Positions 34,418 through 59,343 of a stretch of 64,000 nt of DNA are shown here, piece after piece. The DNA lies in assembly GCA_944320405.1 (NCBI GenBank), contig CALUHI010000011.1:1-64000 (forward strand), read 5' to 3'. The translations under genes and the position numbers were made by a program. The stretch comes from an uncultured Eggerthellaceae bacterium. GTDB taxonomy: Bacteria; Actinomycetota; Coriobacteriia; Coriobacteriales; Eggerthellaceae. The notes beneath the pieces were generated by a model. The model made no database searches, was not told the DNA's origin, and worked only from the letters and a program-made list of their open reading frames with translations. The number at the start of each line of letters is the position of its first letter. Positions within the stretch are counted from its first letter, which is position 1.

Positions 34418-34443
34418 GTGACAGGGGACGGTCCTTCTGTCAC
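34418..34443 (+). repeat. REP-like palindrome copy 1 (forward)
   Basis: GTGACAG (34418-34424) and CTGTCAC (34437-34443) enclose GGGACGGTCCTT. It is followed by ATTTGGATAAT and preceded by a partial duplicate GCGTGACAG (34408-34415) that includes the tcdA stop. Confidence 0.9.
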
Positions 34444-35324: not shown

Positions 35325-35500
35325 CTTTGGATAATCGATTCTCGGCTCTAAATTGTCGCGCTTGTCGGAGAAGGACGCCTCTCCTGACAGTTTGACAACA
35401 AGATCCTTAAGGATAATTACAGGTAATTGTCTAGACGATACAATGCAGCTCCTGCGAAAGCGACGATTGTGGTTGCTTCGGTTCTGGGAGGTGTGTGGCG

Positions 35501-36250
35501 ATGCGCGCTGCAAGAAGACCATGCGAGACCAATGTTTATCATGTGTTCGCCCGCGGAGTCGGTCGACAGCTTATTTTCGAAGACGAAGAGGATCGGCTTT
35601 TGTTTCTCGACTTGATGAGCCGGTTTTCGACGCGAGACGGCATTTCCTTTCTCGCGTGGGCGCTCATGGACAACCACATTCATTTCCTTTTGAAAGCGCC
35701 CTTGCCGGCAATTTCGAAATTCATGTCGAGGCTGGAATCCGCATATGCGACCGCATTCAATGCGCGTCATGACCGGGTGGGCCATCTTTTTCAAGGACGG
35801 TTCGGATCACAGGGAATTGACTCCGATAGGCATCTTCTCGCGGCAGTGCGATACATTCACCAAAACCCGGTGAAGGCAGGAGTGTCGTCGGGGTGCTTCT
35901 ATCGGTGGAGCAGTTACGACGAATACGTTGGCTCCCCGCATCTGTGCGACACCGACATGGTTTTGGGGCTGTTCGCGAATCGAGAAGAATTCGCGTCGTT
36001 TCACGAGGTGGCAGAGACCTGTCGGTTCGCGGACGTCGAAGAAGAAGGGTCGCGTAAAAGCCGCCTCAGTGATCGGCGGGCCGAGGAACGGGCAATGGAG
36101 CTGTTTGGCGCCGAGTGGCGGCGCGACCTTTCCCTTATGGGCAAGCAAGATCGTGATGCGCGTTTGAGGGAGCTGATAAGCCTAGGATTGTCAGTGCGTC
36201 AACTTGAGCGGCTCACGGGAATCGGGCGCGGCATCATCCAGAGATGCTAG
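35501..36250 (+). CDS. REP-associated tyrosine transposase (RAYT, IS200-like Y1 family)
   Basis: A 249-residue HUH nuclease-like protein. N-terminal RPCETNVYHVFARGV is typical of the family. The HUH motif is MDNHIHFLL (His59, His61), then HLFQGRFGSQ and the catalytic Tyr118 in RYIHQNPVKAG. A C-terminal helix-turn-helix-like segment (LGLSVRQLERLTGIGRGI) is present. RAYTs are single-copy and bind and cut REP palindromes. Four copies of one palindrome flank it symmetrically. Start: the ATG at 35501 with GGGAGG upstream; a GTG at 35495 is too close to that site. No transposon ends of IS200 type or accessory orfB are seen. Confidence 0.9.
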   Translation: MRAARRPCETNVYHVFARGVGRQLIFEDEEDRLLFLDLMSRFSTRDGISFLAWALMDNHIHFLLKAPLPAISKFMSRLESAYATAFNARHDRVGHLFQGRFGSQGIDSDRHLLAAVRYIHQNPVKAGVSSGCFYRWSSYDEYVGSPHLCDTDMVLGLFANREEFASFHEVAETCRFADVEEEGSRKSRLSDRRAEERAMELFGAEWRRDLSLMGKQDRDARLRELISLGLSVRQLERLTGIGRGIIQRC

Positions 36251-41071: not shown

Positions 41072-42481
41072 GTGACTGAAGAATCCGCCGCCGAACAGAA
41101 AACGCGCAAGAAAAGCGAAGCTGCACGCGCGTTCGCCGAAGACGGACCGCGCAAGACCCATGTAGGCGGTCAGGCGCTCATCGAAGGCGTCATGATGCGC
41201 GGAAAATACAATTGGGCTGTCGCCGTGCGCGAGCCCAGCGGCAACATGCATGTCGAAGAACACGACCTTGCCAGTGGTCGCGCCAAGAACGGCTGGATGC
41301 ACTGGCCGGTCATTCGCGGCTGCCGTGCATTCGTGGAGTCGCTGATGCTAGGGTACAAGGCGCTGGAGGTCGCCGCCATCCATGCATTTGCGGATGAAGA
41401 TGAAGAGCCAGGGGACGATCCCGGGTCGTCCGCGGCCCTTTCGGGCGCGGATGCTTCCGTGACGCGCCGCTTCGCTGCTCAGGATCCTGCGGATCCTTCG
41501 TGCGCTTCGCTACTGCAATCAGATGAAGTCATAGATGGTGTGCAGACGGTCGCTCCAGCATCCGCGCCCGAAAGGGCCGCTACGTTTTCATGCTCGGAGC
41601 AGGGGGCGGCGACTCCGAAGGGGGAAGAAGAGAAAAAGTTCTCTTGGAAGGATGACTTTGGGAATCCGGATGAGATGATTGATGCGTTGGGGGCGCAGCG
41701 GACGTTGGAGGTTGTTGCCGAACCTGTGCCTGAGCCTGAGCCGGAGGCGGACGCACCTGAGAAGGAAAAGGAGTCTTCCGAAGAAGGGTTCGGGAAGAAG
41801 GAGATGGCCGTCTCCATGGTGCTGGGCCTGGTTTTGGGCGTGGCGCTGTTCATCGTGGCGCCGGCATTCATCACCAATTTGGTGGTGGGCGAGTACGATT
41901 CCAACCCGGTGCTCTGGAACATCTTCGACGGCATCCTGCGCGTGCTTGTGTTCATCTTCTACATCTGGCTGATTGGGCGCATGTCCGAGATCAAGCGCAT
42001 GTTTTCCTACCACGGTGCCGAGCACAAGACCATCCATTGCTACGAGCACGGCATGCCGCTCACGCCTGAGAACGCCCGGTCGTTCCCGCGTCTGCACGTG
42101 CGCTGCGGCACGGCATTCCTCATCATGGTGATGATCATCGCCATCTTCGTGTACACCGCCATCCCACTCGACGCGCTCATCGGCGCATGGGGGGTGCCCG
42201 ACGGCGCTCCCAAGCTGGCGCTCGTCATCTTCGTGCGCATTCTGTTCCTGCCAGTGATCGCGGGCATCTCCTATGAGATCACGGTGAAGTGGGCGGGCAG
42301 CCATCCGGAAAACCCGCTGGTGAAAGTGGTGCTGTGGCCAGGCATGCAGATGCAGCGCCTCACAACCAAAGAGCCTGATGACGGGATGCTGGAATGCGCG
42401 ATTGCGGCCATGCAGCGTGTGCTCGACCGCGAGGAAGAGGAGGCGTCGTGCGCCGCCCGGCCAGCGGAATCGCGGTCGTGA
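41072..42481 (+). CDS. YqhQ/DUF1385 membrane protein carrying an in-frame palindromic element
   Basis: A 469-residue protein. The N-terminal signature VGGQALIEGVMMRGKYNWAVAVR is conserved in YqhQ. After an acidic linker (residues about 108-235) four hydrophobic spans follow, with YHGAEHKTIHCYEHG between them. The function of the family is not established. Residues about 121-170 are encoded by the 149-nt element at 41432-41580, which is also inside the fumarase gene; the insertion lies in the linker and keeps the frame. Starts with GTG at 41072, directly after thyX. Confidence 0.9.
   Translation: MTEESAAEQKTRKKSEAARAFAEDGPRKTHVGGQALIEGVMMRGKYNWAVAVREPSGNMHVEEHDLASGRAKNGWMHWPVIRGCRAFVESLMLGYKALEVAAIHAFADEDEEPGDDPGSSAALSGADASVTRRFAAQDPADPSCASLLQSDEVIDGVQTVAPASAPERAATFSCSEQGAATPKGEEEKKFSWKDDFGNPDEMIDALGAQRTLEVVAEPVPEPEPEADAPEKEKESSEEGFGKKEMAVSMVLGLVLGVALFIVAPAFITNLVVGEYDSNPVLWNIFDGILRVLVFIFYIWLIGRMSEIKRMFSYHGAEHKTIHCYEHGMPLTPENARSFPRLHVRCGTAFLIMVMIIAIFVYTAIPLDALIGAWGVPDGAPKLALVIFVRILFLPVIAGISYEITVKWAGSHPENPLVKVVLWPGMQMQRLTTKEPDDGMLECAIAAMQRVLDREEEEASCAARPAESRS
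41432..41580 (+). repeat. 149-nt in-frame palindromic coding element, copy 1 (in yqhQ)
   Basis: Left arm 41432-41455 (starts GCGGCCCTTTCGGG) is perfectly complementary to right arm 41557-41580. The core is 41456-41556 (101 nt, starting TCCGTGACGCGCC, ending GACGGTCGCTCC). The core matches copy 2 at 58681-58781 in 95 of 101 positions; the arms do not match those of copy 2. It is read in the only open frame of six. Confidence 0.92.
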
Positions 42482-51621: not shown

Positions 51622-51922
51622 GCGCAATCTGATCTTTTCGACCTGTTCGCCCCGGATGGCGGGCGGGGGCTCCGTGCTCAAACAGTCCTGAGCTCGCTCA
51701 AAAGCGCCCACCCGCCCGCTCGGGCGGATAAAATGTTTGTCAACAGTCCACTGGACTGTTGACCATGCGGAACTGCGCGCGGAACCCCCGCCCGCCATCC
51801 GGGGCTACGTTGTCTTTGTTGGGAGTTTTTTTGCTTCTTATACGGCGACGGGCGCACAGGGGAGGGAAGTACCTGCGCGCCCGTCTTCGGTTCGAGCTTG
51901 CCACAGCAAGCTGGTTGCCGTG
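51622..51922. other. 301-base convergent gap holding a 157-nt inverted-arm element
   Basis: It lies between convergent malic enzyme and the transporter binding protein gene. No gene seen. It holds the palindromic element at 51649-51805 and a T run TTTTTTT at about 51830, which could end transcription from the left. Confidence 0.7.
51649..51805. repeat. 157-nt palindromic element with 29-nt inverted arms
   Basis: Left arm 51649-51677 (starts GCCCCGGATGGCGGGCGGGGG) and right arm 51777-51805 are complementary at 27 of 29 positions. The 99-nt core holds an inner palindrome GTCAACAGTCCA-C-TGGACTGTTGAC (51738-51762) and CCGCCCG/CGGGCGG. It has the same arm-core-arm plan as the coding elements. Confidence 0.85.
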
Positions 51923-57792: not shown

Positions 57793-59343
57793 ATGGATAC
57801 CATCATCACGAAACAGGCGGTGGCGACCGCCGTATACGAAGCAATTCCCCAGCTGGCATGCGAGCTTCCTGCTGACATTCTGGCAGGCCTGCAGGCGGCC
57901 CTCGAGCGCGAGGAGGCCCCGCGTGGGCGCGCGGTGCTGCAGCAGCTGGTGGAAAACGCGCATATCGCCAAAACGGATCATGTTCCCATCTGCCAGGACA
58001 CCGGCACGGTGTGGGTGAGCCTGGAGGTTGGCCCCGGCGTGCTCGTGCCCGCCGACGTGTTCGCGAATGTGAACAACGCCGTGGCGCGCGCTTACGACGA
58101 AGCGCGTCTGCGCAAGTCGGTTGTGCGTGACGCCATCCTCGACCGCACGAACACGGGCGACAATACGCCGGCGTTCTGCGACATCCACCCCGTGGACGAA
58201 CCGGGTGTTGCCCGCCTGCGCATCATGCTGAAGGGCGGCGGGTCGGACAACGCCAGCCGTGTGGTCATGCTGCCGCCGGGAGCGGGACGTGCGGGCATCG
58301 TCGAAGAAGTCGTGAAATGCGTGCGAGAAAAAGGCGCCAACGCCTGCCCGCCGCTTGTCACCGGCATCGGCATCGGCGGTACGTTCGACAAAGTCGCAGG
58401 CCTTGCGAAGCGCGCGCTCATGCGCCCGCTGGATGAACCCGCCGAAACCGAAGACGTCCGTGAGCTCGAAGAGGAGCTGCTTGAGGCCATCAACGCCACG
58501 GGAGTGGGACCGGGTGGTATCGGTGGCGCGACTGCCGCGCTTGGTGTACGCGTTGCGACCGCCCCTTGCCACATTGCCGCGCTGCCGCTGGCCATCAACA
58601 TGGGTTGCAGCGCGATGAGGCGCGCGACGGTTGACCTTGCGGTTCAACTTGCGGGGGCGTCCGCAGAGCCCGTCGGGGATTCCGCGACGCGCCGCTCCGC
58701 TGCTCAGGATCCTTCGGATCCTTCGTGCGCTGCGCTACTGCAATCAGATGAAATAATAGATGGTGTGCAGACGGTCGCTCCATCCCCGACGGGCTCCGCG
58801 GACGCTAACGATGCTGTTCGCCTTACTCTTCCGCTTGACCGCGCCCAGTTGCGCGGGCTCAAGGCGGGGCAGGCGTGCTTGCTTTCGGGGCCGATGTACA
58901 CGTTGCGCGATGCGGGGCATATGCGCCTGATGGAAGAGCTTGCCGAAAACGGCGGCGTGCTGCCGTACGGCCTTGATGGCCAGGCCATCTTCTACGCGGG
59001 GCCCACGCCTGCGGCGGCTGGGCGGCCGTTTGGCGCTGTCGGTCCCACGACGGCGTCCCGCATGGACTTTGCCGCACCGGCGCTCCATCGCGCTGGCATT
59101 GCGGCCACGATAGGCAAGGGGCATCGCAGCGCTGAGGTTCGCGCGGCGTGCGCCGAAACCGATTCCGTTTATTTCGTGGCATGCGGCGGGGCCGCGGCGT
59201 TGCTGGCGCGTTGCGTGGCATCATCGGAGACGGTTGCGTATGCGGATCTGGGCACCGAGGCCCTGCGCCGCATCGAAGTTGAGGACTTCCCGGTGTTCGT
59301 CGGCGTGGACACCGAAGGTAAAGACGTTTACGAGATCGTCTAG
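57793..59343 (+). CDS. Class I fumarate hydratase, fused alpha and beta subunits, with an in-frame palindromic element
   Basis: A 516-residue 4Fe-4S enzyme interconverting fumarate and malate. Alpha part (residues 1 to about 285): PICQDTGTVWV with Cys67, LRIMLKGGGSDN, GANACPPLVTGIGIGG and NMGCSAMRR. Beta part (about 342-516): GQACLLSGPMYTLRDAGHMRL and VGPTTASRMD. Between them, residues 289-338 are encoded by the 149-nt element at 58657-58805. No Shine-Dalgarno is seen; TACAAT (57780-57785) ends 7 bases before the ATG, so the mRNA is probably leaderless. L-tartrate dehydratase is a possible alternative activity. It supplies malate for the malic enzyme. Confidence 0.93.
   Translation: MDTIITKQAVATAVYEAIPQLACELPADILAGLQAALEREEAPRGRAVLQQLVENAHIAKTDHVPICQDTGTVWVSLEVGPGVLVPADVFANVNNAVARAYDEARLRKSVVRDAILDRTNTGDNTPAFCDIHPVDEPGVARLRIMLKGGGSDNASRVVMLPPGAGRAGIVEEVVKCVREKGANACPPLVTGIGIGGTFDKVAGLAKRALMRPLDEPAETEDVRELEEELLEAINATGVGPGGIGGATAALGVRVATAPCHIAALPLAINMGCSAMRRATVDLAVQLAGASAEPVGDSATRRSAAQDPSDPSCAALLQSDEIIDGVQTVAPSPTGSADANDAVRLTLPLDRAQLRGLKAGQACLLSGPMYTLRDAGHMRLMEELAENGGVLPYGLDGQAIFYAGPTPAAAGRPFGAVGPTTASRMDFAAPALHRAGIAATIGKGHRSAEVRAACAETDSVYFVACGGAAALLARCVASSETVAYADLGTEALRRIEVEDFPVFVGVDTEGKDVYEIV
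58657..58805 (+). repeat. 149-nt in-frame palindromic coding element, copy 2 (in fumarase)
   Basis: Left arm 58657-58680 (starts GCGTCCGCAGAGCC) is complementary to right arm 58782-58805 at 23 of 24 positions. The 101-nt core is 58681-58781 and is 95/101 identical to the yqhQ core; the arms are unrelated to those of copy 1. It lies exactly at the alpha/beta subunit junction. Confidence 0.92.

Follow-up and report, generated by a model that had tools for sequence, protein, structure and literature searches.

Palindromic elements with a common core and site-specific arms in yqhQ and other genes of Eggerthellaceae

In the palindromic elements of Rickettsia the palindrome, arms included, is the conserved repeat. 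They are described in the available text of PMC10969869 as about 150 nt long and dispersed, with several families per genome; copies occupy unrelated genes without breaking the frame, and translation into peptide is predicted for them. Long perfect inverted repeats within genes are also found in nematomorph mitochondria, many of them specific to a species or a locus, with arms that evolve in concert (PMC6649704, in the part available). Template switching homogenizes the arms of inverted repeats, and both makes and keeps perfect stems (PMC8604942, PMC8794818); quasipalindrome correction of this kind accounts for perfect arms of any sequence, as well as for inversion of the loop. Coding palindromes pose an open question: how a long perfect stem originates inside a gene, and how it persists there.

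Such a stem is found in the yqhQ gene of an uncultured Eggerthellaceae bacterium, within the 64-kb stretch of its DNA analyzed here (the window). An earlier note on this DNA had described a 149-nt palindromic insert, in frame, with perfect 24-nt inverted arms around a 101-nt core. Arms and core are just as described (41432-41455 and 41557-41580, 24/24 complementary; Table 1), and the linker as a whole is in frame; since 149 cannot be divided by 3, the frame is kept by the whole linker only and not by the insert as such. The note's further claim, that the core recurs 17 kb away in an unrelated gene, is borne out by a 103-nt match (58680-58782, 94% identity, E 6e-42) in a fumarase ORF, where the arms (GCGTCCGCAGAGCCCGTCGGGGAT) differ from those of yqhQ. 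The core common to these two copies is termed family I; a third palindrome in the window has a core unlike it (family II), a 72-nt stretch of which is 87.5% identical to one at a Gordonibacter locus (L273, genome G067). There are thus three stems of at least 16 bp with loops of 25-300 nt in the window. Of 20 order-1 Markov sequences as long as the window, 19 had none and the twentieth had one, the longest stem being 16; chance is excluded as the source of the window's long stems. The AlphaFold model of YqhQ has a mean pLDDT of 42, and is therefore uninformative beyond the position of the insert, which lies within the lowest-scoring stretch.

Table 1. Features of the window and further copies of palindromic elements in the window genome
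Feature	Position	Strand	Remarks
yqhQ ORF (DUF1385 by Pfam)	41072..42481	+	469 aa; element in linker
GTCC beside yqhQ copy	41428..41431	+	Fits left outer motif (..CCTGTCC / ..TCGTCC) common beside copies
yqhQ copy, left arm	41432..41455	+	24 nt; private to yqhQ locus
yqhQ copy, family-I core	41456..41556	+	101 nt; reads in frame with arms as AALSGADASVTRRFAAQDPADPSCASLLQSDEVIDGVQTVAPASAPERAA
yqhQ copy, right arm	41557..41580	+	Exact reverse complement of left arm, 24/24
TACGTT beside yqhQ copy	41581..41586	+	Fits right outer motif (TACKYTGCC) common beside copies
Third palindrome, left outer motif	51640..51648	+	GACCTGTTC
Third palindrome, left arm	51649..51674	+	25/26 complementary to 51780-51805
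Third palindrome, family-II core	51675..51779	+	Loop 105; intergenic, after malic-enzyme-like ORF
Third palindrome, right arm	51780..51805	+	
Third palindrome, right outer motif	51806..51814	+	TACGTTGTC
Fumarase ORF	57793..59343	+	N- and C-terminal domains (Pfam), fused; second family-I copy in interdomain linker
Fumarase copy, left arm	58657..58680	+	Sequence unlike yqhQ arm; 23/24 complementary to 58782-58805
Fumarase copy, family-I core	58681..58781	+	94% identical to yqhQ core
Fumarase copy, right arm	58782..58805	+	
hypF family-I copy	C4:56631		
rimI-tsaD fusion family-I copy	C4:142045		Core antisense to gene
Family-I copy	C12:137518		No long ORF spanning it
Third palindromic family, copies	L309:11639, L314:3199, L319:18327, L322:14263, L322:17191, L328:6685		

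The resemblance to the Rickettsia elements that the note had drawn holds insofar as a dispersed repeat of about 100-150 nt lies in frame in unrelated protein genes, but does not extend to an arms-included palindrome as the conserved repeat. Here the arms are private and the loop alone is common, a probable difference from the Rickettsia elements; in addition, one linker carries two unrelated cores in different species. The nematomorph repeats are alike in their long perfect in-gene stems, but the available part of PMC6649704 reports no common dispersed loop, whereas the loop here is a multi-copy repeat family. Private arms with a common loop, and two loops at one site, are the new features. 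As the note had supposed, no description from Coriobacteriia was found in the literature searched, which does not prove that there is none.

The window genome holds five family-I copies (yqhQ, fumarase, hypF, a rimI-tsaD fusion, and C12:137518), the further copies that a genome search had been expected to find. All five have near-perfect arms of 20-25 nt, each pair with its own sequence. Their cores are 75-94% identical (mean 0.84), while the mean identity of the arms is 0.54, vs. 0.48 for shuffled arms. Family II has six copies including the one in the window, by a palindrome census of 806 kb (0.81 Mb of the 2.0-Mb genome). In five of the six (the pairwise test left out the window copy, 51649-51805, which has a longer core) the cores are 79-100% identical (mean 0.87) and the arms 0.57 on average, vs. 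0.53 for shuffled ones; two of these copies have cores identical at 66 of 66 positions and unrelated arms (p 0.06). Over both families in this genome, likeness between copies gave p below 0.05 in none of 20 arm pairs. With cores alike and arms unlike across loci, the repeat is the core, of about 95-103 nt, whereas each pair of arms is a property of its site. The 149-nt palindrome is not supported as the mobile unit, its arms being found in no other copy; an anatomy of common core and site-specific paired arms is well supported. A role for the arms as guides matching another genomic place was also considered, and rejected: the yqhQ arms gave partial hits elsewhere in the genome, none of them full length.

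A search with a covariance model (R1) built from 19 cores found family I in 44 of 138 Eggerthellaceae genomes, belonging to 21 of 48 genera, with copy number reaching at least 27 in one genome. In a survey of 398 Coriobacteriia genomes under strict filters, all 34 positives were Eggerthellaceae, and none was found outside that family; neither the family-I pattern nor single strings from either family matched any viral contig. (Genomes are coded here as G000, the window genome; G001, of the same genus; G004, Adlercreutzia equolifaciens DFI.6.87; G008, an uncultured Adlercreutzia; G046, Curtanaerobium respiraculi; G064, Candidatus Gordonibacter avicola; and so on.) Inverted arms are present in 122 of 124 distinct family-I copies, with a median length of 24.5 nt and mean complementarity of 0.94, 41 being perfect; because the arm search takes the best stem near the core, short arms may be chance; in 101 of the 122 the arms are at least 18 nt. 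Copies in G131, and several in Adlercreutzia and Gordonibacter, share their arms as well, so whole elements spread in some lineages too.

In-frame copies, with open frames, were found in YqhQ, fumarase, HypF, RimI-TsaD, and FtsH. Sense copies in genes share one reading frame (..T[RP]RSAA....SCA.LL....GVQ[TR]VA..); two rimI-tsaD copies read on the opposite strand. Every in-gene copy is found in a variable linker or tail, which is where copies should remain if insertions survive only when tolerated. The many copies, and those in frame within ORFs, agree with the note's idea of a dispersed element that has become (predicted) protein. FtsH-like C-terminal tails with family-I elements, their arms different, occur at L201, L205, and L207 (G030, G031, and G035, all of one genus).

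Alignment of YqhQ homologues indicates that the insert is not universal, again as the note had anticipated: G032 has a short linker without the element, and eight linkers have one or the other of two cores, family I in G000, G062, G064, and G065, and family II in G019, G067, G068, and G075. Two unrelated cores plainly occupy the one linker in different species; between G065 and G067 the left flank is nearly identical, and is followed by family I in the former vs. family II in the latter. Other orthologues that are empty, also foreseen, include tsaD of G002 and hypF of both G001 and G002. In the yqhQ gene of G001, by contrast, a decayed family-I core stands at the corresponding position, with 63% identity to that of the window, and the G001 fumarase has one too (by eye, in a protein alignment); by these alignments the yqhQ insertion is not one that arose recently in the window genome alone. 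The G062 YqhQ linker (L023) is 447 nt long and has a second stretch like the core's terminal part (FDGVQRVA), so it may have been struck twice.

The loop can serve as a marker over many sites and 21 genera, which makes the histories of stem and loop separable. The cores of two loci in one Adlercreutzia genome (L162 and L165) are 0.97 alike, vs. 0.88 and 0.83 to their own orthologues, while the arms show the reverse, at 0.84 to the orthologue in each case and 0.64 between the two loci. In the window genome, the yqhQ core is 0.94 identical to its in-genome paralogue and 0.63 to the G001 remnant, and the core of another locus (L317) is 0.91 identical to its best paralogue and 0.69 to its orthologue in G002; L317 and this orthologue have the same flank, and arms that differ between them yet pair in each. 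However, homogenization of cores within a genome rests on a handful of loci and is not universal: in 6 of 11 Adlercreutzia pairs the core is clearly nearest its orthologue, and for a seventh pair the margin does not exceed 0.02. From this pattern of paralogues and orthologues we infer that loops may be copied between sites; no event was caught between strains. Arm changes between the closer orthologues amount to 11 broken pairs, no double substitutions, and one paired 1-nt gap, while a more distant comparison (L130 vs. L191, a single locus) has four double substitutions and no broken pair. Unpaired changes at short distance and paired ones at long distance fit stems that decay and are then corrected.

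In many intergenic copies, with either core family, the left arm is preceded by ..CCTGTCC or ..TCGTCC and the right arm followed by TACKYTGCC. By eye, the left and right outer motifs have no inverted-repeat relation; they may mark either the edges of a larger unit or a favored target. Being common to families I and II, they are not explained by loop copying alone. Where G008 has a copy that is absent from G004, the difference consists of the element, the outer motifs, and some further bases, which fits the ends of a unit, or a deletion. Comparison of empty or deleted sites gave no consistent target-site duplication, their boundaries being blurred by divergence. At one locus of G007 (L123), a family-I element apparently lies nested within a stem that belongs to a different palindrome, whose outer motifs are the same.

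The explanation we favor, with a probability of roughly 0.5, is that the yqhQ insert belongs to a multi-copy Eggerthellaceae hairpin element whose arms renew themselves and whose cores are copied between loci. The arms would fold into a hairpin in single-stranded DNA, and DNA polymerase would switch template between them, copying one arm onto the other; because such switching copies arm to arm, the stem would be renewed whatever its drift in sequence. Repair of a break or a stalled fork at the hairpin might then take another copy in the genome as template for the loop, the short common edges of the core serving as homology, and this would spread and homogenize the core while the arms stay put. 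An element of this kind could persist as a parasite of replication and repair, with no need for a function in the cell, and within genes would survive only where a linker tolerates the insert and the frame stays open. Quasipalindrome correction alone accounts for the arms but not for the spread of the core between loci. A more general form of the idea, which we put forward tentatively as possible rather than probable, is selfish DNA with a hairpin loop as its mobile unit, which replaces the loops of other hairpins, has its stems made and renewed from the sequence around them, and needs no conserved ends. If true, it would be mainly loops that spread, with stems made and renewed where they stand, and protein linkers of these gut bacteria would be repeatedly rewritten by one kind of element, with YqhQ struck by two cores.

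The arms might instead be created at each insertion, if the end of a mobile core folds back on its own short inner stem and polymerase goes on to copy 20-30 nt of the adjoining target, so that one arm would be native sequence and the second an inverted copy of it. Cores that are identical although their near-perfect arms are unrelated, and uncorrected arm decay in the closer orthologues, are in keeping with this, and the left arm of the hypF copy does resemble the empty hypF linker of G002, as that of the G062 yqhQ copy (by eye) resembles the native linker of its relatives. Yet no clean empty site with one arm present and the other absent was found in Adlercreutzia, Gordonibacter, genus g9, or the window's genus (the candidates are partial, deleted, or too diverged): tsaD of G002 shows neither arm, and the partial sites of Adlercreutzia look like deletions. 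The conserved motifs beyond the arms are also at odds with fold-back copying. Old elements common to the window genome and its genus mates (yqhQ, fumarase, and L317) keep perfect or near-perfect arms in the window genome, and because of these the view that every insertion takes its arms from the target was demoted to a rival; it is the main one, and we think it rather unlikely, though deserving of attention. Selection on an RNA structure (a processing site, or a terminator-like or regulatory one), acting on pairing rather than sequence, would suit the strongly conserved core segments, the variable hairpins, and the paired changes in deeper orthologues, but seems improbable for copies that lie in either orientation and inside unrelated genes, whose cores I and II replace each other at one site, whose arm mismatches persist in closer orthologues, and which have decayed in a genus mate. 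Moreover, an Rfam search with eight loci found nothing near the gathering score. RNAalifold gave a weak consensus for the core alignment on either strand; the individual folds have a recurring outer stem and otherwise vary.

The many dispersed copies and common outer motifs, together with the sharing of arms in some lineages, might also suggest that an ordinary palindromic transposon or MITE is at work, about 150 nt long and carried as one piece by a transposase, with the arms as its terminal repeats. The conserved terminal inverted repeats of a MITE are absent here, however: the inverted arms are not conserved between copies, and what should be the conserved ends are in the window genome the least conserved part, which leaves this account with little likelihood. 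The window also has a Y1 transposase ORF (35435-36250), and REP or REPIN sequences mobilized by a RAYT-type enzyme are likewise many-copy palindromic repeats. That it mobilizes the present elements is nonetheless very improbable: the palindromes flanking the Y1 ORF are a different repeat, which keeps its arm sequence (TGTGACAGGGGACGG..), and family I occurs also where Y1 was undetected, in G004, G008, G131, and G050, which are among the genomes richest in it. A reverse transcriptase (PF00078) was detected in 6 of 16 genomes, and its presence does not track the element.

Several other palindromes were seen in the course of this work. Those on both sides of the Y1 ORF (TGTGACAGGGGACGGTCC..TGTCACATT, motif hits at 34418, 35299, 36308, and 36878) recur through the genome, which gives the ORF the appearance of a RAYT accompanied by its REPs. 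The window genome also has a third palindromic family, most copies of which have long, related arms (GCTGAGAGGGCC..) and several the same outer GTCC / TAC motifs (Table 1). Around AATGAGAAAAAGGGAC there are short, perfect palindromes whose arms are conserved, with 15 motif hits in 0.81 Mb of this genome (L301, L309, L313, L316, L324, and others).
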